From Pseudomonas sp. P8_229 (GTDB lineage Bacteria > Pseudomonadota > Gammaproteobacteria > Pseudomonadales > Pseudomonadaceae): a stretch of 64,000 nucleotides of DNA. The position numbers and the translations under genes are program-made. Of the stretch, positions 46,373-63,404 are shown piece by piece. The stretch spans positions 4,650,501-4,714,500 of the forward strand of contig NZ_CP125378.1 of NCBI RefSeq assembly GCF_034008635.1, given 5' to 3'. Below the pieces are notes generated by a model. It searched no databases, was not told where the DNA came from, and saw nothing but the letters and a program-made list of their open reading frames with translations. The stretch's first letter is position 1. Each line of letters begins with the position of its first letter.

Positions 46373-47944
46373 ATGCGCATTTCCACCGCCCAGTATTACG
46401 CGACGCAAGCTGCTCAATATCAGCGCAACTACAGCAAGACTGTCGCGACCGCCAACGAAGCGAGCAGCCTGCAGCGCATCAATACCGCCGCCGACGATCC
46501 GGTTGGCGCTGGCCGTCTGCTCAAGCTGGGTCAGCAAAGTGCGATGCTCGATCAGTATCAGGGCAACATCGATACCACCAAGAGCGCCCTGACCGTGCAG
46601 GAGTCTACGTTGAACTCCATTACCACGGCTTTGCAGCGCGCCAAGGAAATCGGCCTGGCGGCCAACAATGGCATCGCCACTGACGATAACCGCAAGGCTT
46701 ACGCGGCGGAGCTGGGCCAGATCCAGCAGCAAGTGCTGGGCCTGATGAACTCCAAGGATGCCAACGGCAACTATCTGTTCTCCGGTTCCAAGACCGATAC
46801 CGCGCCGTACTCGCAAAATGTCGACGGCACCTACACCTACAACGGTGACCAGACCCAGATCAACCTGGGCATTGGCGACGGCATGTCGGTCGCGACCAAT
46901 ACCACCGGTTGGGACGCCTTCCAGCAGACCATCAACACCAGCCGCACCCAGACCACCATGACCGCTCCGGCGGTGGATGACGGTCGTGTGGTGCTGTCCA
47001 ACGGTACGGTCGGCACCGCGGCGACCTACAACGCCAAGTTCACCGGCGGCCAGCCGTACACGGTCAGCTTTCTCAGCAGCACTCAGTTGAAAATCACTGA
47101 TGCCCTGGGCAACGACGTGACGTCCGAGGCCAGCCAGAACGGCTTGATCAGCAACAGCAACGGTGCCAACCAGACCGTCAGCTTCCGTGGCGTCGATATG
47201 AAGTTGAACATCAACCTCAAGGCCGGCGACACCAACCCGGACGCGGTCATCGCCGGTCACAGCTTCCAGCTGTCGGCCACGCCTGACTCGTTCACCACGG
47301 CGCGCAGCCCGGGCAACCCGTCGACCGCCGTCATCACCGGCTCCAGCATGACCAACCAGGCAGCCTACAGCGCGGCCTTCCCGTCGGGTGGTGGCGCGGT
47401 GTTGAAGTTCACCAGCGCCACCGATTTCGATCTGTACGCGGCGCCCGTGACCGCTGACAGCAAGCCAGTATCGTCGGGCACCATGGTCGGCACCAACGCC
47501 ACGGCCGCCGGTGTGACCTTCGCCATTGGTGGTACGCCGGGCGCGGGCGATCAGTTCTCGATCCAGTCCAACAACCACCAGACCCAGAACGTGCTCGACA
47601 CCCTGAGCCAGATGGTCACGGCGCTGAACCTGCCGGTCGATGGTGATCCGGTGGTCAAGCAAAAATTCCAGGGAGCCATGGAGTCGGCGTTGGGCAACAT
47701 CGACAGCGCGTCCAACCAGATTGGCGCTGCGGTGACCTCGATCGGTGCGCGGGGTCAGTCGCTGGATGACCAGAACACCACCAACCAGAGCCTGATCCAG
47801 GCCAACACCACGACCCAGGGTTCGATCCGTGATTCGGATCCGGCCGAGGTGATGACCCGCCTGACTTTGCAGCAGACCATGCTGCAAGCCTCGCAACTGG
47901 CCTTCAGCAAGATCAGTCAATTGGGTCTGTTCAACAAGATCTGA
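46373..47944 (+). CDS. flgL: Flagellar hook-associated protein 3, FlgL
   Basis: 523 residues; flagellin-like ends with N-terminal ASSLQRINTAADDPVGAGRLLKLGQQ and C-terminal LTLQQTMLQASQLAFSKISQLGLFNKI. The middle (about 200-400) is a long variable domain, making it larger than enteric FlgL (about 317). FlgL is the second junction protein on which the flagellin filament grows. Last flagellar gene before the glycosylation-type island. AAGGAG precedes the ATG. Confidence 0.95.
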   Translation: MRISTAQYYATQAAQYQRNYSKTVATANEASSLQRINTAADDPVGAGRLLKLGQQSAMLDQYQGNIDTTKSALTVQESTLNSITTALQRAKEIGLAANNGIATDDNRKAYAAELGQIQQQVLGLMNSKDANGNYLFSGSKTDTAPYSQNVDGTYTYNGDQTQINLGIGDGMSVATNTTGWDAFQQTINTSRTQTTMTAPAVDDGRVVLSNGTVGTAATYNAKFTGGQPYTVSFLSSTQLKITDALGNDVTSEASQNGLISNSNGANQTVSFRGVDMKLNINLKAGDTNPDAVIAGHSFQLSATPDSFTTARSPGNPSTAVITGSSMTNQAAYSAAFPSGGGAVLKFTSATDFDLYAAPVTADSKPVSSGTMVGTNATAAGVTFAIGGTPGAGDQFSIQSNNHQTQNVLDTLSQMVTALNLPVDGDPVVKQKFQGAMESALGNIDSASNQIGAAVTSIGARGQSLDDQNTTNQSLIQANTTTQGSIRDSDPAEVMTRLTLQQTMLQASQLAFSKISQLGLFNKI

Positions 47945-48053: not shown

Positions 48054-51000
48054 GTGAATCCACTTCCTCTCGTCAGTCTGCTCATTCCCGCCTTCAATCC
48101 GCGCTTCTTCGAGCGGACCTTGAACAGTGCGGTGAGCCAGACGTATGGCCAACTCGAAATCATTGTGTGCGATGACAGTCGCGGCAGCGAGATCGAAGAC
48201 ATCGTAGTGTCTGTGACCGGGCAGACAGGCGTTGCCGTGCGTTACGTGCGTAATCCGCGGACCTTGGGCATGGTCGGCAATCTCAAGGCCTGCCTGGAAC
48301 AGGCGCAGGGCCAACTCATCAAGTTTGTGTGCGACGACGACCATCTCTACGCCGCCTGTATCGAACAGCAAGCGCAGGAAATGGCGCGCGAGGAAGTCCG
48401 CCTGGTGCTGGCTCAACGTCTGTTCTGGGACGCCGACGACATCATTCTTCCGGCGCGTCTGGAAAACACTTCGCTGTCTCCGGTCAGTGGCCTTTTCAAG
48501 GGCGACGACCTGCTGGGCATCTTTGAAAAGTTTCCAGTGAATGTGCTGGGTGGCTTCACCAATGCGCTGTTCCGTCGTGAAGATCTTGTCGAGTTGCTGC
48601 CGGCGTTGACCCAGGAAGGCCACTGTTTTGTCGCGAGCCTGGATTTCGCGCTGTTTGTCTGCCTGATGCGACGCGGCAATGTGGCGGTGTCCAACAATGT
48701 GCTCAGTGCCGAGCGACTTTACCCGGAGCGCCTGAGCGCCCAACAATCGATGAAAGATGCGGTTGAAGTCGAGCGCGAGTGGATTCTGCAAATGCTCAAT
48801 GCGCGCAGCGGCGAATCTGCGCCTGCGCCGGGCTGGGTCCGCTACATCCCGCTGAGCAAGGCGGACGAAATGCCGCGAGTCTGGGAGGAGCTGCCTCTGA
48901 GCCGCACGCTCGGTACCAAGCAGAGTCGCCAGGAGTGGTGTGTCGGTATCGACAGCTGGAGTTTTGCCGATCTCTATGCGCAATGGCTGGAGTGCCGAGT
49001 GCTCACCGAGGGACAGCGCAAGTTGCTTCCGGAGACCCTGGCCGCCTGGTCGCATCAGCCGCGCATCGTCCCGATCGTCATCGATCGCGATGGCAGTCGC
49101 GACGGCGTCGAGCGCACGCTGGAGGCGCTTGCCGCACAGGATTATCTGCCGGAACTGATCCTCGTGTTGTCGGCTGCCTGTTCCGAGGCGGAGCTCGACG
49201 GACGGGTGTTCCGCATGCCGTTGCAGGACGACGGGCTGGAGCAGCTCAACGCGTTGTTGCCGCAACTGGAAGGGGCTGACTGGTTCTACCTGTTGCAGGC
49301 TGGCGATCGTCTTGTGGTGCCGGCGTTATTGATCATGGCCGAGCGCATCGCCCATCGCCCGGCGCTGACGTGTCTGTACAGCGATGAAGGCAGTCTGCGC
49401 AACGGCGAATCGGTAGAGCCAGCATTCAAACCGGATTTCAACCTCGACCTGATGCGCAGCTATCCCTATGTCGGACGAGCGCTGGCGTTCAAGCGCGAAC
49501 GTTTTCTGGCGCTGGGCGGGTTCGAGGCGACGTTCGCCGAACTGGCCCCGCATGACATGCTGTGGCGCATGGTCGAAAGCGACGGTACGCAGGTGGTCGG
49601 GCATGTCGCCGAAGTGCTGCTGCAATCGCCATTCGATCTGTCCGCCTGGCTCGCCGCCCCAGCGGTCATCGAACAGAACCCGCGGCTACTCGAGGCTCAC
49701 CTCAAGCGTCTGGGGGTGGCCCATGGCATTCGCCGCGGCAGTTCCGCACTGCTCAACCGCATTGACTATCAGCACGCCCGGCGTCCCCTGGTGTCGATCA
49801 TTATTGTGACCAAGGACCAGACGGCTGCCCTGCAGCGCTGCGTCGAAACGCTGCTGGAAAAGACCGCTTACTCCGAATACGAGCTGTTGCTGGTCGACAA
49901 CGGCAGTGAAAGCGCTGAAGCGCGGGCATGGCTTGATGGCATGGCGCACTTGGCCGGCGAGCGGATTCGTGTCCTGAGCTATCCGCAGCAGGGCAACGCG
50001 GCGGCGCTGCATAACTTTGCGGTAGGTCAGGCGTGTGGCGAATATGTGCTGCTGCTCAATTCGTTTGCGGTAATCACCCAGGCTGACTGGCTCGACGAAC
50101 TGCTCAACCATGCGCAGCGTCCGGAAGTCGGCGTGGTCGGTGCCAAGCTCTTCAATCCCGATGGATGTGTGTTGCACGCCGGTCTGATTCTTGGCTTGCA
50201 GGGCGCGGTGGGTTTGCCGTTCTATGGTCAGTCACTGCAATCGGATGGCTACATGTTCCGGCTGCAGGCGGCCCATGACCTGAGTGCCGTGGGTGGCGAC
50301 TGTCTGATGGTGCGAAAGGTGGTTTATGAGTCTGTCGCCGGGCTTGATGAGCAAGCGCTGAAACAGACGCTGAATGTCGTGGATCTGTGCCTGCGGATCG
50401 GTCAGGAAGGTTACCTGGTCGTGTGGACTCCTTATGCCTTGTTGGCGCTGGGCGCACGCCCCGGCGCTCTGGCGACGGTAGAAGAGGAGCAATTGCAGCT
50501 CCAGGAGCAGGAAACTTTCTACAAACGCTGGTTGCCGCGCATTGCCCGTGACCCGGCGTTCAACGTCAATCTGACGTTACAGGGTGTTGGCGCGACGAGT
50601 TTCAGCCTGGAGCCGGGCTTGCGTACCGGCTGGAGTGCATTTTCCCGGGCGCAGTTGCCGAACGTGCTGGCCGTGCCAATCAATGCTTCGGCCATCGGTC
50701 ATTACCGCATGAGCCAGCCACTGATCGAACTGGAAGCGGCCAACCGCGCCGAAGGGCGGATTTGCTATGGCCTGCCATCGATCATTGATATCGAGCGTCA
50801 GTCCCCGGACGTGATTGTTCTGCAAGGGCGTTATTCGCAAGGTGCCATCGATGAAATTCCGCCGCTGAAGAAGTTCTGCCATGCCCGGCGCATCTATGAA
50901 CTGGATGATTATGTGGTCGACGTTCCGCACCGCAATGCACATATCCGCAACATGCCCAACAAGCAGGAAATGGAGCGGATGGTGCGCCGCGCGATCGGTC

Positions 51001-51647
51001 TGTGTGATCGGGTGGTGGTATCGACCCAGCCACTGGCCAACGCTTTGTCGGGCATGCATCACGACATTCGCGTCGTCCCTAATATGCTCGCCCGCAACTT
51101 GTGGACCGGCCTGCGCGGCCAGCGCCGCACCTCGAAAAAACCGCGGGTCGGCTGGGGCGGTGGCACCAGCCACCACGGTGACCTGGCGGTGATTGCCGAT
51201 GTCGTGCGTGAGCTGGCCAATGAAGTCGACTGGGTGTTCTTCGGCATGTGCCCGGATGACCTGCGTCCCTACATGCATGAGTTCCACGGCGTGATTCCGT
51301 TGGAGGTATATCCGGCGAAACTGGCGAGCCTGAACCTCGACCTCGCGCTGGCACCGCTGGAGTTCCACATCTTCAACGACTGCAAGAGTAACCTGCGGCT
51401 GTTGGAGTACGGCGCTTGCGGCTACCCGGTTGTCTGCACCGACACCGAAGCCTATCGCGGTTATCTGCCGTGTACCCGGGTCAAGACCAACACTACCGAT
51501 GAGTGGCTGCAGGCGATCCGCATGCACCTGGCCGATCCGGACGCCAGCTACCGCATGGGTGACGAACTGCGTGAGGTGGTGCTGCGCGACTACGTGTTGC
51601 GTGGCGATAACTTGCGTTACTGGGAGAACGGCTGGCTGGCGGATTGA
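48054..51647 (+). CDS. Giant multidomain glycosyltransferase (GT2 + GT2-like pair + GT4-like)
   Basis: 1197 residues from GTG at 48054. Domain order: N-terminal GT2 (1-about 230) with PLVSLLIPAFNPRFFERTL and the nucleotide-binding acidic motif KFVCDDDHLY; a degenerate GT2-like segment (about 335-570, PEFNLDLM-type PDFNLDLMRSYPYVG); a second full GT2 (about 577-800) with RPLVSIIIVTKDQ, LLLVDNGSES and PEVGVVGAKLFNPDG; and a C-terminal GT-B-like domain (about 870-1197) with VGWGGGTSHHGDL and KSNLRLLEYGACGYPVVCTD. A protein of this kind directly after flgL matches the flagellin glycosyltransferases (fgt/FgtA-type) of Pseudomonas glycosylation islands. The acceptor is inferred to be flagellin. Confidence 0.88.
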   Translation: MNPLPLVSLLIPAFNPRFFERTLNSAVSQTYGQLEIIVCDDSRGSEIEDIVVSVTGQTGVAVRYVRNPRTLGMVGNLKACLEQAQGQLIKFVCDDDHLYAACIEQQAQEMAREEVRLVLAQRLFWDADDIILPARLENTSLSPVSGLFKGDDLLGIFEKFPVNVLGGFTNALFRREDLVELLPALTQEGHCFVASLDFALFVCLMRRGNVAVSNNVLSAERLYPERLSAQQSMKDAVEVEREWILQMLNARSGESAPAPGWVRYIPLSKADEMPRVWEELPLSRTLGTKQSRQEWCVGIDSWSFADLYAQWLECRVLTEGQRKLLPETLAAWSHQPRIVPIVIDRDGSRDGVERTLEALAAQDYLPELILVLSAACSEAELDGRVFRMPLQDDGLEQLNALLPQLEGADWFYLLQAGDRLVVPALLIMAERIAHRPALTCLYSDEGSLRNGESVEPAFKPDFNLDLMRSYPYVGRALAFKRERFLALGGFEATFAELAPHDMLWRMVESDGTQVVGHVAEVLLQSPFDLSAWLAAPAVIEQNPRLLEAHLKRLGVAHGIRRGSSALLNRIDYQHARRPLVSIIIVTKDQTAALQRCVETLLEKTAYSEYELLLVDNGSESAEARAWLDGMAHLAGERIRVLSYPQQGNAAALHNFAVGQACGEYVLLLNSFAVITQADWLDELLNHAQRPEVGVVGAKLFNPDGCVLHAGLILGLQGAVGLPFYGQSLQSDGYMFRLQAAHDLSAVGGDCLMVRKVVYESVAGLDEQALKQTLNVVDLCLRIGQEGYLVVWTPYALLALGARPGALATVEEEQLQLQEQETFYKRWLPRIARDPAFNVNLTLQGVGATSFSLEPGLRTGWSAFSRAQLPNVLAVPINASAIGHYRMSQPLIELEAANRAEGRICYGLPSIIDIERQSPDVIVLQGRYSQGAIDEIPPLKKFCHARRIYELDDYVVDVPHRNAHIRNMPNKQEMERMVRRAIGLCDRVVVSTQPLANALSGMHHDIRVVPNMLARNLWTGLRGQRRTSKKPRVGWGGGTSHHGDLAVIADVVRELANEVDWVFFGMCPDDLRPYMHEFHGVIPLEVYPAKLASLNLDLALAPLEFHIFNDCKSNLRLLEYGACGYPVVCTDTEAYRGYLPCTRVKTNTTDEWLQAIRMHLADPDASYRMGDELREVVLRDYVLRGDNLRYWENGWLAD

Positions 51648-51671
51648 TCGATTTGCGTACGGCCCTATGAG

Positions 51672-51705
51672 AAACAGGCGACTTTCGAGTCGCCTGTTTT
51701 TTTTT
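51672..51705 (+). terminator. Rho-independent terminator after the giant glycosyltransferase
   Basis: AAACAGGCGACT and AGTCGCCTGTTT around TTCG (a stable tetraloop), followed by nine T's. Confidence 0.93.
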
Positions 51706-51883
51706 GCGTGGCAAAAAGGTTTTTGTATCAGGCCGGATACTTTTTTGGCGGTGGGCTCAAGCATTGGGATTTTTCTGTCGATACCTTTCCATGCGCTCAA
51801 TTGGCATGGTCAGTGAAGATCTGTCCGGCCAGTGTCTGAGGTGACCGATTTCCGGATCCGACAACAACGCAAGGAAGAAGCAG

Positions 51884-53890
51884 ATGGCAGTAGTGAATGG
51901 AACGAGTGAAGCGGATAACCTGGTGGGCACCGAGGGCAATGACGAACTCTACGGACTGGAGTCGGATGATCGGATCTGGGGGACCACGGGGTCCGATTTG
52001 CTGAATGGCGGAGAAGGATTCGATTCGGTGAGTTATCAGATGATGTCCAAGGGCGTCAGTGTCGATTTCCGTGAGGGGTTGGCCAATGTCACCAAGGCGG
52101 ACGGCTCCGTCGATACCCTGGTCGGCATCGAAAAAGTCATCGGCAGCTTTGACAATGACACCTTGGTCAGTTCGGTCAGCGGTATCACGCTGGAAGGTGA
52201 TAACGGCGATGACGTGTACATCGTCGGTAGCGAAGGTGTGACCATCGTCGAAGAGGAGCGCGGCGGTTACGACGAGCTGCGCACCAGCGTCAACACCCAG
52301 AGGATGGATCCGTTCCTGGACAAAATGATCTTCACCGGCACCGGCGACTTCAAGGGCTACGGCAATGCGGAGGCGAACGTGATTGTCGCCGGTGCAGGCA
52401 ATGACGTGCTGTGGGGCGGCGACGGCGGCGATCAGTTCATGGGGGGTGAGGGCTTCGACACTGTCAGCTATACCGACAGCCTTGAAGGCGTAAGCATCGA
52501 GCTCTCAAGCACGTGGGGCGCCACCGGTATTGCATTCGGCGATACCTACTCGAGCATCGAGGCCGTGCAGGGTTCGAACTTCAACGACGTGATCTTCGCT
52601 GGCGAAAGCGCGATGGTGGTGGACGGTGCCGAGGGTTTTGACGCCGTCGATTACAGCCGTTCGAACGATGCGGTCAGCATCGAGTTTCGTGATGGCAAGG
52701 GCTTCGGTTCCGGCGGTTACGCCGAGGGCGATACCTTGATCAATGTGGAGAAGGTTGTCGGGACGAACCTGGACGATCACTTCACCGCCAATAGCACTGG
52801 CGTGACCTTCGAAGGTGGCTGGGGCAGCGATGTCTACACGGTCAACAGCGTGGGTGTGACAATCGTCGAGGAGTGGGGGAGCCCGGGGTACGACGAGCTG
52901 TACACCAGCCTGTCGGTGATGAAGATGGATCCGTTCATCGAGAAGATGACTTACACCGGTACCGCTGATTTCACCGGTTATGGCAACGAGTCCGACAACC
53001 ACATCTTCGGCGGCAGTGGCAATGATCTGTTCTTCGGTGGCGCCGGACGTGATGTTTTCGTCGGCGGCGAGGGGACGGACATTGTCAGCTATGACGACAG
53101 CGATACTGGCGTGGTAGCGGGGTTGTGGAAGATCGGCCAGAACGGCACGGCCGAAGGTGACATGTATTACGACATCGAAGGTTTGCGTGGCAGCCGTTTC
53201 AACGATGTGCTGGATGCCAGCCGGGACGACACGAGTCTGGAGGGTGGTAACGGCGACGATGTCATCAATGGCAATGATGGCAACGATCACCTCTATGGCG
53301 GACTGAAATCCGGTCTCGAAGGCGATACCGCACAGGCTGACAAATTGTTCGGCGGCGACGGCGATGACGTCATCGTCAGTGCTGCGCATGACTTCGGCAC
53401 CGAGGCCTACGGTGGACAAGGCAATGACACCCTCAGGGTCAACAGCGGCAGCGCCTTTGGAGACGATGGTAATGACGTGCTGACCGGCACCGGTAATCAC
53501 TATCTGTTGTCCGGCGGCAGCGGCAACGATGTGCTGAATCTCAACGTCTCCGGGCAGTCGGGCACTGGCGGCGTCGCACTGGGGGGGATGGGGGATGACA
53601 CCTATATCGTGAACGCCAGCGGCCTGGTGTCGATTCAGGACGAGGGCTGGGATCTCAACGACACCCTGATCCTGAACACCCTTGCCAATATCAGTCAGAT
53701 GAACGTCACCCGCATCGGCGACGACGCCTACCTGCACAGCGCCAACGACGGCAGCACCGGCGTCCCTGACAGCGGCGTGAAACTGGCGGGATGGTATGCC
53801 GGGTTCAACAACATCGAGCACCTGCAGACTGCCGATGGCCAGGTCTACGACCTGCCTGCGACTGTCGATGGGTTCGCCATGTTTGGCTAA
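51884..53890 (+). CDS. RTX-type calcium-binding repeat protein
   Basis: 668 residues, acidic, with no N-terminal signal peptide, as expected for type I secretion substrates. Many hemolysin-type GGxGxDxUx repeats: LLNGGEGFDSVSY, VLWGGDGGDQFMGGEGFDTVSY, IFGGSGNDLFFGGAGRDVFVGGEGTD, SLEGGNGDDVINGNDGNDHLYGG, KLFGGDGDDVI. A segment of about 150 residues is duplicated (about 46-195 and 250-400): compare DVYIVGSEGVTIVEEERGGYDEL with DVYTVNSVGVTIVEEWGSPGYDEL. No enzymatic domain is seen, so it may be an adhesin or surface-layer-like protein. AAGGAAG lies before the ATG. It is a monocistronic unit between terminators. No type I secretion genes are in the window. Confidence 0.85.
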   Translation: MAVVNGTSEADNLVGTEGNDELYGLESDDRIWGTTGSDLLNGGEGFDSVSYQMMSKGVSVDFREGLANVTKADGSVDTLVGIEKVIGSFDNDTLVSSVSGITLEGDNGDDVYIVGSEGVTIVEEERGGYDELRTSVNTQRMDPFLDKMIFTGTGDFKGYGNAEANVIVAGAGNDVLWGGDGGDQFMGGEGFDTVSYTDSLEGVSIELSSTWGATGIAFGDTYSSIEAVQGSNFNDVIFAGESAMVVDGAEGFDAVDYSRSNDAVSIEFRDGKGFGSGGYAEGDTLINVEKVVGTNLDDHFTANSTGVTFEGGWGSDVYTVNSVGVTIVEEWGSPGYDELYTSLSVMKMDPFIEKMTYTGTADFTGYGNESDNHIFGGSGNDLFFGGAGRDVFVGGEGTDIVSYDDSDTGVVAGLWKIGQNGTAEGDMYYDIEGLRGSRFNDVLDASRDDTSLEGGNGDDVINGNDGNDHLYGGLKSGLEGDTAQADKLFGGDGDDVIVSAAHDFGTEAYGGQGNDTLRVNSGSAFGDDGNDVLTGTGNHYLLSGGSGNDVLNLNVSGQSGTGGVALGGMGDDTYIVNASGLVSIQDEGWDLNDTLILNTLANISQMNVTRIGDDAYLHSANDGSTGVPDSGVKLAGWYAGFNNIEHLQTADGQVYDLPATVDGFAMFG

Positions 53891-53918
53891 TCGCTCAAAC
53901 TGTTGATGCAACGCAATG

Positions 53919-53955
53919 AAAGGGATGAATCCGCTGCTGGATTCATCCCTTTTTT
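53919..53955 (+). terminator. Rho-independent terminator after the RTX-type gene
   Basis: AAAGGGATGAATCC and GGATTCATCCCTTT around GCTGCT, followed by T's. Starts 29 bp after the stop. Confidence 0.92.
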
Positions 53956-54145
53956 CATGCCTCGCGGCGCAGCTGATGCAGTGCTCGCGGAGCTGGCGCG
54001 TTTCCTGCAAGTCCCCCTTAAATCGCCATAAAACGAGCGCTCGCGGTCATCGCAGCGGCGCCGCAGGCGGCAAAAGGGTTAGCCAGACGGCCCGCATCGC
54101 TCAAGAAAGCCATGCGCAGCCCGGTGACGAACGAGAGGGGAGACG

Positions 54146-54919
54146 ATGAAGGCAGTTATTTTGGCGGGTGGCCTCGGCACACGCATCAGTGAAGAGTCGC
54201 ACCTCAAGCCCAAGCCCATGATCGAGATCGGCGGCAAGCCAATTCTCTGGCACATCATGAAGCAGTATTCCGCTCACGGAATCCACGACTTCGTGATTTG
54301 CCTGGGCTACAAGGGCTACGCGATCAAGGACTTCTTCGCCAACTACTTCCTGCACACCTCCGACGTCACGTTCGACATGCGCAACAACCGTATGGACGTG
54401 CACCAGAACTACAGCGAGCCGTGGAGCGTCACTCTGATCGACACCGGAGAGGAGACCATGACCGGTGGCCGTCTGCTGCGCGCCGGGCGTTACCTCAAGG
54501 ATGAAGAGGCGTTCTGCTTCACCTACGGCGACGGCGTTTCCGACATCAACATTGCGCAACTGGTGGACTACCACAAAGCCCACGGCCGCCTGGCGACCGT
54601 CACGGCCGTACAGCCGCCGGGACGTTACGGCGCGCTGGAGCGTCAGGGCGATCAGGTCCTCGGTTTCACCGAAAAACCGCGCGGCGACGGTGGCTGGATC
54701 AACGGCGGTTTCTTCGTGTTGTCACCCAAGGTCTTGTCGTATATCGCCGGTGACGAAACCACCTGGGAAGCCGAGCCCTTGGCGCGCCTGGCCGAGGACG
54801 AACAGCTGAACGCCTTCGAACATGAAGGCTTCTGGCATCCAATGGACACCCTGCGCGACAAGAACCACCTCGAAGCGCTGTGGCAGAGTGGGGAGGCCCC
54901 ATGGAAGCAATGGGCCTGA
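54146..54919 (+). CDS. rfbF: Glucose-1-phosphate cytidylyltransferase
   Basis: 257 residues, the usual RfbF length. Nucleotidyltransferase signature [17 protein letters not shown] followed by [56 protein letters not shown] and [20 protein letters not shown] are RfbF-specific blocks. It makes CDP-glucose from glucose-1-phosphate and CTP, the entry to CDP-6-deoxyhexoses. GAGGGGAG precedes the ATG. First gene of a long, tightly packed operon; its end overlaps rfbG by 19 bp. Confidence 0.96.
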
Positions 54920-55983
54920 GTGCGGATTTCTGGCGCGGCAAGCGTGTACTGGTCACCGGTCACACCGGTTTCAAGGGCAGTTGGCTGACGCTGTGGCTGC
55001 AAAGCCTCGGTGCGCAAGTCAGCGGCTTTTCCCTTGATCCGTCGACCGAGCCGAGCCTGTATGAGCTGGCGCGGGTTCACGAAGGCATCAACGATCAACG
55101 CGGTGATCTGCGCGATCTCGGCGCGCTCCTGGAGATCATCGCCGACACCGAGCCGGAGATCGTCCTGCACCTGGCCGCGCAGCCGCTGGTGCGTGAAGGC
55201 TATCGCGACCCGCTGGGCACTTACTCCAGCAACGTCATGGGCACGCTGAACCTGCTCGAAGCGATTCGTCAGGTCGGCTGCGTGCGCGCCTGCGTGCTGG
55301 TGACCACCGACAAGGTCTACGCCAACAAGGAATGGCTGTGGCCATACCGCGAGGACGAAGCGCTTGGCGGGCACGATCCTTACAGCAGCAGCAAGGCTTG
55401 CTGCGAACTGTTGGCGCAGTCGTATGCGGCCTCGTTCTTCCCGGCCGACAAGTACGCCGAGCACGGCCTGGCGCTGGCCACCGCGCGCGCCGGCAACGTC
55501 CTGGGCGGCGGTGACTTTGCCCCTGAGCGCCTGATTCCCGACGTGCTCAAAGCCTGGACCGCAGACGAGCCGGTGACCCTGCGCTACCCGCAAGCCGTGC
55601 GCCCGTGGCAGCACGCGCTGGAACCGCTGGCCGGTTACCTGCAACTGGCTGCAGGTCTCTACGAACAAGGCCCGGAATACGCCGGGGCGTGGAACTTCGG
55701 CCCGGGCGAGGCAGACATGTGCAGTGTCGGCGACGTGGTCGAGTTGCTCGCCAGTCGCTGGCCACAGGCACGCGGTTTGCGCATCGAAAAAAGCGAACTG
55801 CACGAGGCCGGTCTGTTGCGTCTGGACAGCAGCCGCGCCCGTCAAGTACTCGGCTGGCAGCCACGCTGGACCTTGCAGCAATGCCTGACCCAGACCCTCG
55901 ACTGGCATCTGGCCTGGCAGAACGGCGATGACATGCGCAACGTCACTCTCGGCCAACTGAACCTGTACCGAGGCGCGCTGTGA
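54901..55983 (+). CDS. rfbG: CDP-glucose 4,6-dehydratase
   Basis: 360 residues from the ATG at 54901, which has GGGAGG 4-5 nt upstream and lies inside the end of rfbF. Extended SDR: NAD-binding [16 protein letters not shown], active-site triad region [14 protein letters not shown] (the Thr-Asp-Lys loop typical of 4,6-dehydratases) and the [11 protein letters not shown]yr-x3-Lys. [14 protein letters not shown] is an RfbG hallmark. It converts CDP-glucose to CDP-4-keto-6-deoxyglucose. The stop shares GTGA with the next gene start. Confidence 0.95.
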
Positions 55984-56540
55984 GCGAGTTCTCCTTGAAA
56001 CAGTTATCGCTGGCCGGACTGTTCAGCATCCAGCACAAGCGTTTCGAAGATCAGCGCGGGCACTTCGCCCGGCTGTTCTGCGAGGGCAGCCTGAGCGCGT
56101 TCGGCCGTGAATTTCACATCCGCCAGATCAACCATTCCTGCACCCGCGAGAAGGGCAGTGTGCGCGGTTTGCATTACCAGAACGCCAACGCCCCGGAAGC
56201 CAAGCTGATCACCTGCCTGCGCGGTGAAGTGTGGGATGTGGCGGTGGATCTGCGTCCTGATTCCGAGACTTTTCTGCACTGGCACGCCGAGCATCTGAAG
56301 GCCGGTGACGGTCGCAGCCTGTTGATTCCGGCCGGCTTCGCTCACGGCTTCCAGACCCTGACCGACGACGCCGAACTGCTTTACCTGCACAGCGCCGATT
56401 ACGCGCCGGAGCATGAGGGCGGGCTGTCGGTGAACGATCCACGGCTGGCGATTGCCTGGCCGATGCCTGTCAATAATTTGTCAGCGCGTGATTCCAGCCA
56501 TCCCGCGCTCGATCAACACTTTGCTGGAGTGCGTCTATGA
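55980..56540 (+). CDS. dTDP-4-dehydrorhamnose 3,5-epimerase family protein
   Basis: 186 residues from GTG at 55980. RmlC-like cupin: FEDQRGHFARLFCEG, INHSCTREKGSVRGLHYQ (with the active-site His in RGLHYQ), EVWDVAVDLRPDSETF and LIPAGFAHGFQTLTDDAELLYLHS (Tyr and catalytic dyad region). In dTDP pathways the family epimerises C3 and/or C5 of 4-keto-6-deoxyhexoses; after rfbFG it should act on the CDP-4-keto sugar, or only at C3 or C5. Joined to both neighbours by 4-bp start-stop overlaps. Confidence 0.92.
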   Translation: MSEFSLKQLSLAGLFSIQHKRFEDQRGHFARLFCEGSLSAFGREFHIRQINHSCTREKGSVRGLHYQNANAPEAKLITCLRGEVWDVAVDLRPDSETFLHWHAEHLKAGDGRSLLIPAGFAHGFQTLTDDAELLYLHSADYAPEHEGGLSVNDPRLAIAWPMPVNNLSARDSSHPALDQHFAGVRL

Positions 56541-57763
56541 ACTGTCGTGGGTGCGCCGCACCGCTGAGCCTGCCGCTGATCGACCTCGGCACCTCGCCGC
56601 CGTCCAACGCCTACGTGCACGCCGATCGCCTGGATCAGACCGAGCAATGGGTGCCGCTGAAGGTTGCCGTGTGCCAGCAATGCTGGCTCGTGCAGACCGA
56701 GGACTACACCCGCGCCGACAGCCTGTTCGACGCCGAATACGCCTACTTCAGTTCGTTCTCCAGCACCTGGCTGTCCCATGCCGAGCGTTATGTGGCCGAG
56801 ATGGTCGAGCGCTTTGACCTGAACGCCGGCAGCCGTGTGGTCGAAATCGCCGCCAACGACGGTTATCTGCTGCAGTACGTCGCCGCTCGCGGCATCCCGT
56901 GCCTGGGCGTCGAACCAACCCGCAGCACCGCGCAAGCGGCGCGGGACAAGGGCCTGGAAATCCGCGAACTGTTCTTCGGTCGCGACAGCGCAGCACAGTT
57001 GAAAGGCGAAGGCTGGGGCGCCGACCTGATGGCCGCCAACAACGTGCTCGCGCATGTGCCGGACATCAATGATTTCCTCAATGGTTTCGCCACGCTGCTC
57101 AAGCCGACCGGCGTTGCTACTTTCGAATTCCCGCAACTGCTGACGCTGATGGCCGGTGCGCAGTTCGACACCCTGTATCACGAACACTATTCCTACCTGT
57201 CGCTGACCGCCGTGCAGACCCTGTGCGAGCGCAATGGCCTGGAAGTGTTCGACGTCAGTCAGTTGAGCACTCACGGCGGTTCGCTGCGGGTGTTCGTGCA
57301 ACGCCGGGACGGTGAGCGTCGTGCGGTGCAGCCGGCGGTGCAGCAACAGCTGCAGGCCGAACTGGATGCCGGGGTGAAAACCCCTGAGTACTACGCGACC
57401 CTCGCGCCGGCTGCCGAACGTATCAAGCATGAGTTGCTGCGCTTCCTGTTGCAGGCCAAGGCCGACGGCAAGCGTGTGGTCGGTTACGGCGCGGCGGCCA
57501 AGGGCAACACCTTGCTCAACTACGCCGGGGTCAAACCCGACCTGCTGGCGTGGGTGGCCGATGCCAACCCGCACAAGCAGGGCAAGTACCTGCCGGGCAG
57601 TCGTATCCCGATTGTCGCGCCGACGCAGATCGACATCGAAAAACCGGATTACGTGCTGGTGCTGCCGTGGAACCTGCTGCACGAAGTCAGTCAGCAACTG
57701 GCGCAGGTGCGCCAGTGGGACGGGCGCTTCGTGATCGCCGTGCCTGAGTTGAAAGTCCTGTGA
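56537..57763 (+). CDS. Sugar C-methyltransferase, TylC3-type
   Basis: 408 residues. N-terminal zinc-binding domain (about 1-65) with four cysteines in CRGCAAPL and CQQCWLVQT, a SAM-binding Rossmann core (VVEIAANDGYLLQYVAARG, about 95-115) and the Methyltransf_14 C-terminal domain with FVQRRDGER, GYGAAAKGNTLLNYAGVK and DANPHKQGKYLPGS. This three-part layout and length are those of NDP-4-keto-hexose C3-methyltransferases (TylC3, TcaB9). It should add a methyl branch at C3 of the CDP-4-keto-6-deoxyhexose. Starts with an ATGA overlap on the epimerase gene. Confidence 0.9.
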   Translation: MNCRGCAAPLSLPLIDLGTSPPSNAYVHADRLDQTEQWVPLKVAVCQQCWLVQTEDYTRADSLFDAEYAYFSSFSSTWLSHAERYVAEMVERFDLNAGSRVVEIAANDGYLLQYVAARGIPCLGVEPTRSTAQAARDKGLEIRELFFGRDSAAQLKGEGWGADLMAANNVLAHVPDINDFLNGFATLLKPTGVATFEFPQLLTLMAGAQFDTLYHEHYSYLSLTAVQTLCERNGLEVFDVSQLSTHGGSLRVFVQRRDGERRAVQPAVQQQLQAELDAGVKTPEYYATLAPAAERIKHELLRFLLQAKADGKRVVGYGAAAKGNTLLNYAGVKPDLLAWVADANPHKQGKYLPGSRIPIVAPTQIDIEKPDYVLVLPWNLLHEVSQQLAQVRQWDGRFVIAVPELKVL

Positions 57764-58611
57764 AAGTCCTGGTAACCGGGGCTACGGGCTTCGTCGGTCG
57801 GCATCTGGTCGCGGCGTTGCTCGCGCGTGGCTGCGCCGTTCGCGCAGTGGCGCGCAATACAGATACTGCCTCGACTATGCCGTGGATCGACCACGTCGAA
57901 TTCGTCGCGGCGGATATTCACGCGGCGGATCTGGACATTGCGGCGCTCACCGACGGCATCGACGTCCTCGCGCACCTGGCCTGGCCGGGCCTGCCGAACT
58001 ATCGGGCGCTGTTCCATTTCGAGCACAACCTGATGGCCGACTACCGCTTTATCAAAGGCGCGGTCGAAGCGGGTGTGCCGCAGGTATTGGTGACCGGCAC
58101 CTGCTTCGAGTACGGCATGCAAAGCGGCCCGCTCAGCGAAACCGTCGAGCCGCAGCCGAGCAATCCTTACGGTCTGGCCAAACACACGCTGCATCTGTTC
58201 TTGCAAAATCTGCAGCAGGAAAAACCGTTCACCTTGCAGTGGGCGCGTCTGTTCTACCTGCATGGTGAAGGGCAGAACCCCAACAGTCTGCTGGCGGCGC
58301 TGGACCGGACGATCGATGCCGGGGAGGCGTCGTTCAACATGTCTGGCGGCGAGCAGCTGCGGGACTTTTTGCCGATCGCCAGCGCCGCCGCTTACCTCGC
58401 CACGATCATGCATCAGCGCGATTTCAACGGCGTGATCAATTGCGCCAGCGGCCAACCGGTATCGGTGCGCGCACTGGTTGAACAACGTCTGCGCGAGCGC
58501 GGTGCGGCACTGAATCTGAACCTCGGCCATTACCCTTATCCGACCCATGAACCGATGGCGTTCTGGGCCGTGACCGAGCGTTTGCAACAGCTACTGGGAG
58601 AGCCGCAATGA
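57760..58611 (+). CDS. NAD-dependent epimerase/dehydratase (likely 4-ketoreductase)
   Basis: 283 residues from GTG at 57760. Extended SDR fold: VLVTGATGFVGRHLVAALLA, TGTCFEYGMQSGPLSE and catalytic NPYGLAKHTLHLF (Tyr-x3-Lys), GEQLRDFLPIASAAAYLA. No dehydratase-type TDK loop is present, so a C4 keto-reduction finishing the branched sugar is the likely role, as for the reductases that follow TylC3-type enzymes. The stereochemistry at C4 cannot be told. 4-bp overlaps on both sides. Confidence 0.88.
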   Translation: MKVLVTGATGFVGRHLVAALLARGCAVRAVARNTDTASTMPWIDHVEFVAADIHAADLDIAALTDGIDVLAHLAWPGLPNYRALFHFEHNLMADYRFIKGAVEAGVPQVLVTGTCFEYGMQSGPLSETVEPQPSNPYGLAKHTLHLFLQNLQQEKPFTLQWARLFYLHGEGQNPNSLLAALDRTIDAGEASFNMSGGEQLRDFLPIASAAAYLATIMHQRDFNGVINCASGQPVSVRALVEQRLRERGAALNLNLGHYPYPTHEPMAFWAVTERLQQLLGEPQ

Positions 58612-59678
58612 GGCACGAGTTGTATCGGGTCACCGACCTGCCGGTGTTGCAGAACCGCACCTTTGCCGACCCCGAGTCGGCAAAAGCTTCGGCCAGCGCC
58701 GACATGCTGCTGGTGCAGGATGAGCGCAGCGGCTTGATCTTCAACGCCGCGTTCGATGCCGACAAGCTCAGCTACGACGCCGACTATCAGAACGAGCAGG
58801 CGCACTCCGGCCAGTTCCAGAAGCACCTGAGCGACGTCGAAGGCATCATCGCCAAACACTTCAAGGGCCAGGAGCTGATCGAAGTCGGCTGCGGCAAAGG
58901 CTACTTTCTTGAGTTGCTCAAGGGCCTCGGTTATTCGATCACCGGGATCGACCCGGCCTACGAAGGCGACAACGCCGACGTGATCAAGGCGCCGTTCACC
59001 CGTGGTCTCGGCCTGGCGGCGGACGCCATCGTCCTGCGTCATGTGCTGGAGCACATCGAAGACCCGGTGAGCTTTCTGGCGGTAATCGCCGAAGCCAATC
59101 AGGGCGGGCAGATCTACATCGAAGTGCCGTGCTTCGACTGGATCCTCGAGCACAAGGCCTGGTTCGATCTGTTCTACGAGCACGTCAATTATTTCCGCCT
59201 CGATGACCTGCGCCGAATGTTCGGCACCGTGCACGAGGCCGGCAACCTGTTTGGCGGCCAGTACCTGTACATCGTCGCCGACCTGTCGACGTTGCGCCTG
59301 ACTCCGCAGCAACCGGTGCCACGCCTGACGTTGCCAGACGATTTCACCGCGAGCCTTGAGCGCGCGGTGCAGATCATCCAGTCCGCACCCGAGCAGGGTT
59401 CGGCGATCTGGGGCGCGTCGTCCAAAGGCGTGATCTATTCGCTGTTCCTGCAGCGCGCGGGTGTCGCGGTGGATCGCGTGGTGGATATCAACCCGGCCAA
59501 GCAGGGGCGTTATCTGCCCCTGAGCGGCGCGCGAGTGTCCTCGCCGCAGGAGGCTATGGACGCCTTGCCCGAAGGTGCCAATCTGTTTGTGATGAACTCC
59601 AATTACCTCGAAGAAATCAAGCGGATGACCGGTGGACGCTACGTCTATCACGCCGTCGATAGCGCTTCGTTCCAGTGA
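58608..59678 (+). CDS. Class I SAM-dependent methyltransferase
   Basis: 356 residues. SAM motif I LIEVGCGKGYFLELLKGLG (about 87-105), post-motif GIDPAYEGD and LRHVLEHIEDPVSFL. The C-terminal third has the Methyltransf_14-like pattern SAIWGASSKGVIYSLFLQRAG and VDINPAKQGRYLPLSGA, related to the gene two positions upstream but without its N-terminal zinc cysteines. It may methylate a sugar hydroxyl or carbon on the glycan. ATGA overlap upstream and GTGA overlap downstream. Confidence 0.88.
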   Translation: MRHELYRVTDLPVLQNRTFADPESAKASASADMLLVQDERSGLIFNAAFDADKLSYDADYQNEQAHSGQFQKHLSDVEGIIAKHFKGQELIEVGCGKGYFLELLKGLGYSITGIDPAYEGDNADVIKAPFTRGLGLAADAIVLRHVLEHIEDPVSFLAVIAEANQGGQIYIEVPCFDWILEHKAWFDLFYEHVNYFRLDDLRRMFGTVHEAGNLFGGQYLYIVADLSTLRLTPQQPVPRLTLPDDFTASLERAVQIIQSAPEQGSAIWGASSKGVIYSLFLQRAGVAVDRVVDINPAKQGRYLPLSGARVSSPQEAMDALPEGANLFVMNSNYLEEIKRMTGGRYVYHAVDSASFQ

Positions 59679-60433
59679 CCATTGAGACTTTGAACATGAC
59701 CGACAACAGCATCAACCAAGCCTTCGAAGCTGAATGCCGCGAGCAGATCGCTCAGCAGGGTGACGACCAGAAACTGACTGGCCTGGCCCGCGATTTCTTC
59801 AACGAATCGGCCAAACACAAGTACAGCTACCACTTCTCGTGGATGGGCCGCCCGATTATCCAGTTGCCACAAGACATGATGGCGATGCAGGAGATCATCT
59901 GGCAGGTCAAGCCGGATCTGGTCATCGAGTGCGGCATCGCCCACGGCGGCTCGATCATCTACTACGCCTCGTTGCTTGAACTGCAAGGTCACGGCGAAGT
60001 GCTGGGCATCGACCTTGACATCCGCCCGCACAACCGTGAAGCGATCGAAAGCCACCCGATGGCCAAGCGCATCAAGATGATCGAAGGCTCGAGCATCGAC
60101 CCGGCCATCGCCGCACAAGTGCAAGCAGTCGCCAAAGGCAAGAAAGTCATTCTGGTCCTCGACTCCAACCACACCCACGATCACGTACTCGAAGAGCTGC
60201 GCCTTTACGCGCCGCTGGTCTCGGTCGACAGCTACTGCGTGGTGATGGACACCGTGGTTGAGGACATGCCGGCCGATTTCTTCCCTGATCGCCCATGGGG
60301 CCCGGGTGATAACCCAAAAACCGCGGTGTGGAAGTACCTGGAAGAGAACCAGGACTTCGAGATCGACCAGCAGTTGCAGAACAAGCTGCTGATCACCGTG
60401 GCGCCGGACGGCTATCTGCGCCGCGTTCGTTAA
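59675..60433 (+). CDS. CmcI-like protein (cephalosporin hydroxylase family)
   Basis: 252 residues from GTG at 59675 (the GTGA overlap follows the pattern of the operon); an ATG at 59696 would give 245. Rossmann SAM-binding pattern: DLVIECGIAHGGSIIYYASLL, LGIDLDIRPHNREAI, IEGSSIDPAIAAQV, VLDSNHTHDHVLEEL and CVVMDTVVEDMP. Proteins named after cephalosporin hydroxylase CmcI are in fact SAM-dependent methyltransferase-like and are frequent in deoxysugar and rhamnosyl O-methylation clusters. An O-methyltransferase for the glycan is the best guess. Confidence 0.87.
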   Translation: MTIETLNMTDNSINQAFEAECREQIAQQGDDQKLTGLARDFFNESAKHKYSYHFSWMGRPIIQLPQDMMAMQEIIWQVKPDLVIECGIAHGGSIIYYASLLELQGHGEVLGIDLDIRPHNREAIESHPMAKRIKMIEGSSIDPAIAAQVQAVAKGKKVILVLDSNHTHDHVLEELRLYAPLVSVDSYCVVMDTVVEDMPADFFPDRPWGPGDNPKTAVWKYLEENQDFEIDQQLQNKLLITVAPDGYLRRVR

Positions 60434-60488
60434 TTCGCAACATCACCAAAGCGTTATTTCGGCGAGTCGCCGGTTGTGGAGAGAAGTT

Positions 60489-63404
60489 ATGCAAGGCAAG
60501 TACAGTTCTGAACTGGCGCTACCGCTCAACGAGCTGTTGACCGTGGTGCTGATTACTCACAATCGGCCGGCGTTCCTGCGTCGGGCGGTGAAGTATTACA
60601 GCAGCTTGCCCTGCCGGATCATGGTGCTGGACTCCACACCCGAGCGGCCGGAAGGGGATTTCTCTGCCGTCGATTATCACCACGTGCCGCAGTTCGCCTA
60701 TTGGGGCATGCAGGCCAAGCTGGCGTATGGCGTGGAGCGCCTGACCACGCCGTACATGGTGCTGGCGGCCGACGATGACTTCATCCTGCACGATTCGCTG
60801 GCCGAGTCCGTCGGTTTCCTGCAAGCGAACCAGGACTACGGCATGTGCCACGGCTATTGCCTGATGTACCTGACGCTTTCCGGCGGTGTGAACTATTACC
60901 GCCGCGACAAGAAAGTCCAGGAGGACTATGCGTCCGAACGGGCTCAGGATCGGGTTATCGATTATATGGGGCAGTACATCCCGCCGTTCTATGCGGTGAC
61001 CCGTACCGAACTGATGAAAACCTGGCACTCGGCATTGCCGGCGGGGACCAATTTCCAGTGGCAGGAAATCGGCCACGTGTACTTCTTGTTGGCCAGCGCC
61101 AAGGCGCGGATCCTGCCAATGCCTTACGTGGTACGCGAGATCAACTATGGCAACTCCGAGCACAGTACCGAGGTGTATCACTCGCTGACCTACGTTGATG
61201 CCAAATCGGTCGCCGAGCGTGAAGCGTTTGCCGAGTTCCTCGCCTCGCTGCCCACCGGTATCAAGGATCTCGATGCGCAACAGGGCAAGGCGTTTGCCTT
61301 GCAGAGTTTCGAGGCAATGGTCGACAGCCTGCAAAGCGGTCGGGCACTGACGGCGGAACTGATTTTCCAGTCCACCTGGAATCAGTCGCTCAAGGCACCT
61401 GATCGTCGGTTCGGACCTCTGCAATACGTCGAGATGCCATTTTACAACCAGCCATTTTTCGATCGTCTCGCGCAATTCGAATTCATGCTGCACGCCATGC
61501 CGGCCGGACGCATTCAGTTGCAGGGCCTGGAAGGTGTATGGACCCGCCAGGCGCACTTGCTGCAAGCGCGCAACAACGACACTCCGGAAAGCGTCCTCGA
61601 TCGTTTGTGGCAGGCGCACGACCTCAATGCGTTCAACCGCACGGTGGTCAAGTGTCTGACGCAGCAGCTGGAACTGGCCGGCGAGGACGAAGAGGCGCAG
61701 AAAATGCGTGACTGGAATGCCCGGCTTGATGCGTTGACGGTGGAGGACCACCATCGGGTATTTGACCAGATGCAGTCCGGCCGACTGCTCAAGTGGCTGG
61801 ATTCGCGCCGGCCCGATGCCGGTCAGGCGACGTCGATTGCCGAGCACCTGGCGGTCAACGGCGGTGGCCCGCAGTTCGGCATCTTCCTGCTGGATCTGGA
61901 CAACGATATCGACAAGTTGCAGGTCAGCCTCGACAGCCTGCTCGAAGGGCAATGCAAGGCCTTCAGGATTGTCGTGTTCACCACCGGCGAAGCACCGGCG
62001 GCCACCACCGCGCAGAACACTTTGCACTTTGTCCGGGTGACGCCGGCCAACCTGGTCGACAAGCTCAATCAGAGCGCCAGTCAGTCGCCTTGCGACTGGC
62101 TGCTGCTGGCCGAGGCGGGGGATGAGTTCACTGCCAGTGGCTTGTTGCGCGCCAGCCTGGAGTTGATGGCTGCCGGCGATTGCCGCGCTGTTTCCACCGA
62201 CGAGATCCAGCGCGGGGAGAAGGGCGCGCTGCTGGATGTGTTCCGTCCCGGCTTCAACCTCGACCTGTTGCTGAGCCTGCCGGGCCTGATGGCGCGCCAC
62301 TGGCTGGTGCGGCGTGACACGCTGATCGATATTGGCGGCTACCGCGCCGACTTCAACAAGGCCCTGGAATTTGACGTGCTGCTGCGCATCATCGAAGAGC
62401 ACGGTCTGAACAGCCTGGCCCACCTCGACGAGCCGCTGCTGATCACCGAAGCCGCGTCGCTGGAGGAAAACGCTCATGAGCGCCTGGCGCTGCTGCGCCA
62501 TCTGGGCAATCGCGGCTACAAGGCCAAGGTCACCTCGGCGGTGCCTGGCATTTACCAGATCGATTACCACCACAGCGATCGTCCGCTGGTGTCGATCGTG
62601 GTTCCGGCCGGCAACGACCTGCCAGCCCTGCAACGCTGTCTGGAAGGGGTGCAACTGCGCACTCGTTATCACCATTACGAAATTCTGATCGCCACCACGG
62701 TCACGCAATCGGCCGAGGTCAATGACTGGCTCGGTACTCACCAGCATCCGAAAGTCCAGGTGCTGCGCGCCGATCAATCGCTGAGCACAGCGGCGTTGCT
62801 CAACGCCGCCAGCCGACAGGCACAGGGCGAGTATCTGGTACTGCTCGCGGCCGACGCGGAAGTGGTCAACCCGAACTGGCTGGATTCGTTGCTCAATCAT
62901 GCCTTGCGTCCGGAAGTCGGCGTGGTGGGGCCGAAACTGGTCGACCGCGACGGCAAAGTCAGTCAGGCCGGCTTGATCCTCGGTATGAATGGCGGGGTGG
63001 GCTCGGCGTTCATCGGTGAAAAACACGACGCCGACGGCTACCTGCATCGGTTGTCGGTGGACCAGAACTGCTCGGCGGTATCGAACGTGTGCCTGATGGT
63101 GCGCAAAGAACTGTTCGATGCGCTGGGCGGTCTGGACGACAGCACTTTCAGCGACGGCTTCAACGATGTCGATCTGTGCCTGAGCGCTGCTCAGGCCGGC
63201 TACCTGACGGTGTGGACGCCGACGGTGCAGGTCCTGCATCAGGGCGAGATTGCCCAGGCGCCGCAGTCACTGGCTGCTTTGCAGGAAAAGTGGGCCGCCG
63301 CGTTTGCTCAGGATCAGGCGTACAACGCCAACCTGAGCCTGACCGGCAAAGGCTATGGCCTGAATGACAGCGCGTCGCTGAACTGGGCGCAGTTGCTCGC
63401 CTGA
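60489..63404 (+). CDS. Second giant glycosyltransferase (TIGR00180-like N-terminus + GT2 pair)
   Basis: 971 residues from the ATG at 60489, preceded by GGAGAG. N-terminal domain (1-about 330) with LLTVVLITHNRPAFLRRAVKYY and VLAADDDFILHDS, the TIGR00180-type glycosyltransferase seen in flagellar glycosylation loci. A degenerate GT2-like segment (about 459-690, FRPGFNLDLLLSLPG) is followed by a C-terminal full GT2 (about 697-930) with RPLVSIVVPAGNDLPALQR and RPEVGVVGPKLVDRDGKVSQAG. The last two parts are clearly homologous to the middle of the glycosyltransferase at 48054. Probably transfers the island sugar to flagellin or extends the glycan. Confidence 0.88.
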   Translation: MQGKYSSELALPLNELLTVVLITHNRPAFLRRAVKYYSSLPCRIMVLDSTPERPEGDFSAVDYHHVPQFAYWGMQAKLAYGVERLTTPYMVLAADDDFILHDSLAESVGFLQANQDYGMCHGYCLMYLTLSGGVNYYRRDKKVQEDYASERAQDRVIDYMGQYIPPFYAVTRTELMKTWHSALPAGTNFQWQEIGHVYFLLASAKARILPMPYVVREINYGNSEHSTEVYHSLTYVDAKSVAEREAFAEFLASLPTGIKDLDAQQGKAFALQSFEAMVDSLQSGRALTAELIFQSTWNQSLKAPDRRFGPLQYVEMPFYNQPFFDRLAQFEFMLHAMPAGRIQLQGLEGVWTRQAHLLQARNNDTPESVLDRLWQAHDLNAFNRTVVKCLTQQLELAGEDEEAQKMRDWNARLDALTVEDHHRVFDQMQSGRLLKWLDSRRPDAGQATSIAEHLAVNGGGPQFGIFLLDLDNDIDKLQVSLDSLLEGQCKAFRIVVFTTGEAPAATTAQNTLHFVRVTPANLVDKLNQSASQSPCDWLLLAEAGDEFTASGLLRASLELMAAGDCRAVSTDEIQRGEKGALLDVFRPGFNLDLLLSLPGLMARHWLVRRDTLIDIGGYRADFNKALEFDVLLRIIEEHGLNSLAHLDEPLLITEAASLEENAHERLALLRHLGNRGYKAKVTSAVPGIYQIDYHHSDRPLVSIVVPAGNDLPALQRCLEGVQLRTRYHHYEILIATTVTQSAEVNDWLGTHQHPKVQVLRADQSLSTAALLNAASRQAQGEYLVLLAADAEVVNPNWLDSLLNHALRPEVGVVGPKLVDRDGKVSQAGLILGMNGGVGSAFIGEKHDADGYLHRLSVDQNCSAVSNVCLMVRKELFDALGGLDDSTFSDGFNDVDLCLSAAQAGYLTVWTPTVQVLHQGEIAQAPQSLAALQEKWAAAFAQDQAYNANLSLTGKGYGLNDSASLNWAQLLA

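Follow-up and report, generated by a model that had tools for sequence, protein, structure and literature searches.

Cytidine diphosphate (CDP)-vinelose was reportedly isolated from Azotobacter vinelandii in the 1960s; vinelose is 6-deoxy-3-C-methyl-2-O-methyl-L-talose, and CDP-vinelose carries its 2-O-methyl group already on the nucleotide sugar. Pathways of the TylC3/TcaB9 type deal with deoxythymidine diphosphate (dTDP) sugars in antibiotics. In the flagellin of Pseudomonas syringae, a rhamnan is capped by dTDP-linked N-(3-hydroxy-1-oxobutyl)-2-O-methylviosamine, each glycan is 14 Da lighter when VioM is lost, and mutants of the viosamine island change the flagellin mass (PMC3927599). For virenose, a 3-C-methyl-6-deoxyhexose of Coxiella lipopolysaccharide (LPS), a TylCIII homologue has been proposed in silico, and the accessible part of that study proposes TDP and GDP routes and no CDP route (PMC3539893). 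Here, we describe a seven-gene operon (positions 54146-60433) in a 64,000-nucleotide stretch of Pseudomonas sp. P8_229 (contig NZ_CP125378.1; the whole stretch is called the window) and compare it with these systems.

The operon probably makes a CDP-linked 6-deoxy-3-C-methyl-2-O-methyl-hexose, and we assign a probability of about 0.72 to the reading in which it provides the flagellar filament with a CDP-activated, vinelose-type sugar. In this respect the predicted product resembles CDP-vinelose in being a CDP-linked 6-deoxyhexose with 3-C-methyl and 2-O-methyl groups. With the product of the P. syringae viosamine island, it would share the character of a modified 6-deoxyhexose flagellin cap with a 2-O-methyl group, but the P. 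syringae sugar is dTDP linked, bears a 4-amino group with 3-hydroxybutyryl, and has no C-methyl group, whereas the window operon is without an aminotransferase. By analogy, the cassette in the window resembles a version of that island for a CDP-linked, C-methylated sugar. The TylC3/TcaB9 antibiotic pathways use a C-3 methyltransferase with the same domain makeup as the one found here; the window differs from them in its CDP-glucose enzymes, and no 2-deoxygenation gene was recognized in the operon. A 3-C-methyl-6-deoxyhexose is common to Coxiella virenose and to the product predicted here, with LPS as the destination there and flagellin as the probable one here. In the literature searched, outside of which most subscription papers lie, we found no gene or role for CDP-vinelose, nor the word “vinelose,” and nothing joining 3-C-methyl sugars with Azotobacter or flagellin glycosylation with a C-methyltransferase and CDP. 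The few papers that pair CDP-glucose with A. vinelandii or with a C-methyltransferase, or flagellin with glucose-1-phosphate cytidylyltransferase in Pseudomonas, appeared to be unrelated. Term searches of the available text of two reviews returned no mention of “rhamnos-,” “viosamine,” or “pseudaminic” (PMC8036289) and none of “CDP,” “C-methyl,” “Azotobacter,” or “fluorescens” (PMC3958885); PMC11833859 is work on the b-type flagellin of PAO1.

Proteins of the window were scored against Pfam and NCBIfam families and their cutoffs (Table 1). An initial annotation of this DNA had listed, in order, rfbF, rfbG, an RmlC-type epimerase, a TylC3-type C-methyltransferase (here called cMT), a short-chain dehydrogenase/reductase (SDR), a second methyltransferase (MT2), and a CmcI-like protein; the seven reading frames, their order and place, and the family assignments were all confirmed. 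Five of the six junctions (rfbG through CmcI) overlap by 4 bases, and the rfbF/rfbG junction overlaps by 40 bases if the automatically picked GTG start of rfbG at 54880 is assumed (the alternative is an ATG at 54901). Judged from this layout, the seven genes are translationally coupled. The enzymes of CDP-glucose synthesis and 4,6-dehydration both score above their CDP-specific equivalog cutoffs, and a dTDP route was rejected for this reason. The operon's RfbG is the sole CDP-glucose 4,6-dehydratase above cutoff in its own genome, and the two PF08484 matches of that genome both lie inside the operon.

The epimerase scores narrowly above the TIGR01221 cutoff (158 versus 156 bits) and keeps His65, Lys75, and Tyr135, presumably catalytic as in RmlC, in 81/81 aligned copies (80 named Pseudomonas loci, described below, plus the window). 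Its identity to the other RmlC of the genome is 41% over 165 residues, so the two are separate paralogues. cMT aligned end to end with the D-mycarose 3-C-methyltransferase 4rv9 (E = 2e-69) and matched 4rv9, 5t64, and 3ndi, which are D-mycarose 3-C-methyltransferase and TcaB9 chains, at E <= 2e-67. Its residues Tyr214, Glu216, His217, and His173 are invariant (81/81), with the Tyr-x-Glu-His motif aligned with 3ndi, as are Cys3, Cys6, Cys46, and Cys49 of the zinc site (81/81); we take the roles of the motif and of these cysteines to be those assigned in work on TcaB9. cMT probably methylates C3, with a 4-keto nucleotide sugar as its substrate. The best PDB match of the SDR is MoeE5 (E = 2e-23), and a YxxxK motif is visible in its sequence; no NCBIfam family reached its cutoff among the SDR matches listed (best 25 of 29). 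The CmcI-type protein falls far under the cutoff of the rhamnosyl O-methyltransferase equivalog NF045824 (114 versus 400 bits). Among the matches listed for the 10 proteins scanned from 48054 to 63404, there was no RfbH-type 3-dehydrase, and the interval from rfbF to CmcI contains no sugar aminotransferase or C4 acyltransferase. As in the initial annotation, the 3,6-dideoxy routes (paratose, abequose, and yersiniose) and the viosamine route were rejected for the window, the former for want of an RfbH-type match and the latter for want of an aminotransferase.

The route proposed below is inferred from sequence in each of its reactions, positions, and configurations, as well as in its flagellin target. 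RfbF would form CDP-glucose, and RfbG would convert it to CDP-4-keto-6-deoxyglucose. The RmlC-type enzyme, which probably acts on the CDP sugar, would epimerize it, probably at C5 or at C3 and C5, to give an L-sugar; cMT would methylate C3, beside the keto group; the SDR would reduce C4; and the CmcI-type enzyme would then place an O-methyl group on the completed sugar, with O2 as the most likely site. MT2 would add a further methyl group to the reduced form only, most likely on the new O4, and a glycosyltransferase of the island would cap flagellin glycans with the sugar. From CDP-glucose to O-methylation, this route is that of the initial annotation, which remains the best reading with three points revised below. 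O-methylation, given there as a possibility, is more than that, since the CmcI gene is present in 80/80 relatives.

TABLE 1 Features of the operon and its surroundings in the window
Feature	Position	Strand	Basis or note
flgL, hook-filament junction protein, upstream island edge	46373..47944	+	Translation, named by inspection
Large glycosyltransferase, 1197 aa, between flgL and operon	48054..51647	+	PF00535, two stretches
RTX (HemolysinCabind) repeat protein, 668 aa	51884-53890		Between large glycosyltransferase and rfbF
rfbF, glucose-1-phosphate cytidylyltransferase	54146..54919	+	TIGR02623, 460 bits (cutoff 300)
rfbG, CDP-glucose 4,6-dehydratase	54880..55983	+	TIGR02622, 472 bits (cutoff 278)
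RmlC-type 4-keto-sugar epimerase, probably on CDP sugar	55980..56540	+	PF00908, 197 bits
cMT, C-3 methyltransferase of TylC3/TcaB9 type	56537..57763	+	PF08421 (zinc domain), PF13489 (SAM domain), and PF08484 (C-methyltransferase C-terminal domain), all above cutoff
SDR of the extended type, probable C4 ketoreductase (first half of module A)	57760..58611	+	PF01370, 106 bits
MT2, second S-adenosylmethionine (SAM) methyltransferase, with a C-methyltransferase fold that has diverged (second half of module A)	58608..59678	+	PF13489, weak PF08484
CmcI/rhamnosyl-O-methyltransferase type, proposed 2-O-methyltransferase	59675..60433	+	PF04989, 319 bits (cutoff 23)
Two-part glycosyltransferase, directly downstream of CmcI	60474..63404	+	TIGR04440 and GT2 domains

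Azotobacter genomes were sought via PF03139, which was matched in 7 of 398 Pseudomonadaceae genomes. Two of these seven (G056 and G017) have a full-length relative of cMT, and the other five have none. G056 is a single contig of 5,366,370 bases whose AnfG is identical to 8boq_C (119/119) and whose VnfG is identical to 5n6y_C (113/113); both PDB entries come, we presume, from A. vinelandii, and we take G056 to be that species on these grounds. It encodes one TIGR02622 protein above cutoff and one PF08484 protein, both in the same operon, which reads rfbF, rfbG, rmlC, cMT, hexapeptide acyltransferase, SDR, CmcI, PhyH, TylF-like. Homologues of rfbF (75% identity to the window), rfbG (49%), rmlC (58%), cMT (62%), and CmcI (51%) thus stand in one operon beside fliC, with a tetratricopeptide repeat (TPR)/GT41-GT2 protein and this flagellin facing the operon's end. 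The window differs in having a different SDR and the extra MT2 and in lacking the acyltransferase, PhyH, and TylF genes. Provided that the chemistry reported for vinelose holds, the G056 genes very probably make CDP-vinelose, and their place beside flagellin suggests that vinelose is a flagellin sugar. The A. vinelandii operon closes with genes for the PhyH-type dioxygenase and the TylF-type methyltransferase (7299-8956 of locus L111), which suggests a modification beyond vinelose there. In G017, from the same genus group, counterparts of all seven genes stand in the same order as in the window (identities of 58% for cMT, 31% for MT2, 29% for the SDR, and 45% for CmcI), and FlhB, FHIPEP, and SRP54-type genes lie upstream of its operon.

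The surroundings of the operon in its own genome are likewise flagellar. The operon had been described as next to flgL, which holds loosely, as the large glycosyltransferase and the RTX-repeat protein stand between flgL and rfbF. Downstream, the two-part glycosyltransferase gene begins 40 bases past CmcI. Beyond the window edge (locus L003), PseC, PseF, PseG, and PseI each score above their NCBIfam cutoffs, and PseH is weakly matched (32 bits versus a cutoff of 93). After the pse genes come a methyltransferase, a KAS III protein, an MptE-like protein, which we take to be of the Maf type, and then flagellin (Flagellin_N/C); past the flagellin are fliD and regulator genes, named by inspection only. 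Since flgL, glycosyltransferase, pse genes, and fliC surround it, we regard the operon as part of a flagellin-glycosylation island. The full island strengthens the flagellin setting proposed in the initial annotation; the accompanying remark that such a flagellin sugar was not known to be described has to be modified, as CDP-vinelose is a precedent and the core operon is present in G056, taken here as the same species. In 30 of 80 relatives, too, an RTX-like match immediately precedes rfbF. In L003, the KAS III-like and MptE-like genes (5652-8109) lie between pseI and fliC, and the KAS III-like gene is reminiscent of VioS from the viosamine island of P. syringae (PMC3927599).

Scanning of genome contigs with cMT gave 235 relatives, of which the best 80, all titled Pseudomonas, were analyzed. 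In all 80, rfbF, rfbG, rmlC, cMT, CmcI, and the downstream glycosyltransferase were matched in that order (in one, the rfbF match spans <= 30% of the query), and the glycosyltransferase is the next recognized gene after CmcI. The interval between cMT and CmcI takes three forms: SDR plus MT2 (module A, 46 loci), SDR alone (module B, 9 loci), and a DegT aminotransferase plus a NeuD/VioB-type acyltransferase (module C, 25 loci; families tested on L062 only). The absence of an aminotransferase noted earlier is therefore true of the window operon but not of the family, 25/80 of which carry the aminotransferase and acyltransferase instead of SDR and MT2. Automatic picking of open reading frames misread or missed the SDR in 16 of the 46 module A loci and was incomplete in L051, L067, and L081 (module C), so the module assignment rests on gap length and on SDR matches, which were found in 55/55 loci of modules A and B and in 0/25 of module C. 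Weak MT2 matches (23-26%) in 18 loci of modules B and C did not hold up as separate genes and were taken to be the related cMT.

CmcI follows the module. Its identity between loci of the same module is 85.5-100% (A-A), 94.7-99.6% (B-B), or 83.7-99.6% (C-C), and between loci of different modules it is 79.6-85.7% (A-B), 67.2-73.6% (A-C), or 68.5-73.9% (B-C). The CmcI tree requires 2 changes of module label, the minimum possible. In contrast, rfbG identity reaches 100% between modules, and the DNA tree of rfbG plus rmlC requires 22 changes, with starred branches forcing 12 for A, 12 for C, and 2 for B. Labels are nonetheless clustered on that tree (shuffled labels gave a mean of 29.4 changes, with 22 or fewer in 0/200 shuffles), which is not a species tree, because of recombination within the upstream genes. 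As CmcI tracks the module and the upstream genes and the downstream GT2 gene do not, the unit of exchange appears to be the module together with CmcI. From this tie we read that CmcI would act after C4 finishing and would be matched to the C4 group. With constant ends and three alternative middles, loci of this family seem to produce caps that are C-methylated and whose group at C4 can be exchanged. In the sister strains with module C, the aminotransferase and acyltransferase in place of SDR(+MT2) would give a 4-acylamido version of the C-methylated sugar, and by analogy module C would be the closest counterpart of the P. syringae viosamine island. We give even odds to the broader proposal that this is a family of vinelose-type biosynthesis loci, with vinelose as a flagellin sugar, in which swappable modules complete an unvarying CDP-3-C-methyl-4-keto core at C4 (by reduction, by reduction and methylation, or by amination and acylation), each module travels with a 2-O-methyltransferase matched to it, and strains thereby differ in the flagellar cap.

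Several observations weigh against these readings. The SDR of G056 has no match to that of the window at E 1e-4, the two not being recognizable orthologues, and MT2 is absent from the G056 operon, so the sugar of the window need not be vinelose itself; given this different SDR and extra MT2, vinelose proper was rejected as a firm claim for the window. Among 15 further relatives outside the 80 loci, 11 have no FliC, FlgL, or FliD match in the stretch examined, these three being the flagellar genes searched for, and one (L132) is a polysaccharide cluster, where glycosyltransferases and a flippase-like gene accompany the operon and CmcI is absent. The A-A minimum of CmcI identity (85.5%) slightly overlaps the A-B maximum (85.7%). 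Finally, CmcI adjoins the module, and their tie may be plain linkage. This last explanation, by which the tie would reflect physical linkage in a recombining island without functional matching, is the most serious of the alternatives, although we rate it somewhat below even. Beyond the adjacency of CmcI, it gains from the cMT gene at the opposite edge of the module, whose C-half also diverges somewhat by module (median identities of 91.6 for the same module and 86.3 for different modules). However, the GT2 gene, 40 bases further on in the window, does not follow the module (median identities of 64.1 for the same and 66.5 for different modules, with a cross-module maximum of 92.9).

MT2 is a distant relative of cMT (22-23% identity in the alignment). 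It scores 25.7 bits for PF08484 (cutoff, 23.5), and its sole PDB sequence match is 4rv9 (E = 1e-4). The Glu-His dyad is retained, but the zinc-site cysteines, which the relative in the Azotobacter-group locus L112 has kept, are lost, and Phe replaces the Tyr of the Tyr-x-Glu-His motif, a position that is presumably Tyr222 in TcaB9 numbering. MT2 co-occurs with the SDR in 46/55 loci and with the aminotransferase in 0/25, and L132 has the SDR-MT2 pair without CmcI; this pattern points to the SDR-made hydroxyl as the target, and O4 is the most likely site of methylation by MT2. From its ancestry, MT2 may instead carry out a second C-methylation, as a C5 methyltransferase acting beside the keto group, where NovU methylates, to give two branch methyls. 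Such a role would agree with MT2 having kept the dyad and, from the C-methyltransferase fold, the C-terminal domain, but it seems unlikely, given the lost cysteines and the Tyr-to-Phe change and given that methylation of C5 before C4 finishing should suit the aminotransferase loci as well, none of which has MT2.

It is similarly improbable that MT2 and CmcI methylate the glycan after transfer, with a CDP sugar bearing the C3 methyl only. The Pfam family of CmcI is named for rhamnosyl O-methyltransferase, which acts on a glycosidically linked sugar, but CDP-vinelose has its 2-O-methyl on the nucleotide sugar. The 2-O-methyl of the modified viosamine of P. syringae is likewise proposed to be placed on the dTDP sugar (PMC3927599). 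The least likely alternative, by which the same sugar goes into the O-antigen of LPS or some other polysaccharide of the surface and the operon is flagellar by location only, draws on the cluster in L132 and the 11 relatives mentioned above, but no flippase or polymerase was recognized among the island proteins scanned or read from flgL to fliC (pseB was outside the scan), flgL was recognized in 43/80 loci despite flanks of <= 8 kb, and the operon adjoins flagellin in A. vinelandii and in locus L141.

If the operon does make a vinelose-kind flagellin sugar, genes and a likely role would be available for a CDP-linked branched sugar isolated long ago, and flagellin caps would vary via a small finishing module swapped together with its matched methyltransferase. 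What is new is the probable gene assignment for a precedented class of sugar, the link to flagellin, and the exchangeable finishing module. Plants sense Pseudomonas flagellin, and A. vinelandii is genetically tractable.

The 15 further relatives comprise L111, L112, and L130 to L142, the last 13 of which come from 17 genomes with a strong cMT match (omitting G000 itself, G030, G488, and G519). Flagellar genes are nearby in four of them (L111, L112, L133, and L141). In L141 (347-12900), from the small Pseudomonas genome G095, the order is flgL, TPR/GT41-like, rfbF, rfbG, rmlC, cMT, TylF-like, SDR, CmcI, and flagellin; the 19-kb stretch examined gave no match to any pse gene, and the flagellin N-terminal and C-terminal matches, 1.3 kb apart, more likely belong to one gene. 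L131, L133, and L134 have an aminotransferase-like match straight after cMT (28-32% to PseC), like module C. The cMT relatives in L135 and L142 have no adjacent rfbF-rfbG pair, L138 has no rmlC, SDR, or CmcI match, and the L139 stretch stops at cMT. In 390 genomes of the order, including that of the window, cMT was matched at E <= 1e-60 in 17 and MT2 at <= 1e-30 in 4, so the locus is uncommon in the order. When rfbF of each of the 80 loci is compared with the window gene, identities are nearly bimodal (~86-92% or 95-99%) and follow the module only incompletely, a hint of one more recombination point at the upstream end.

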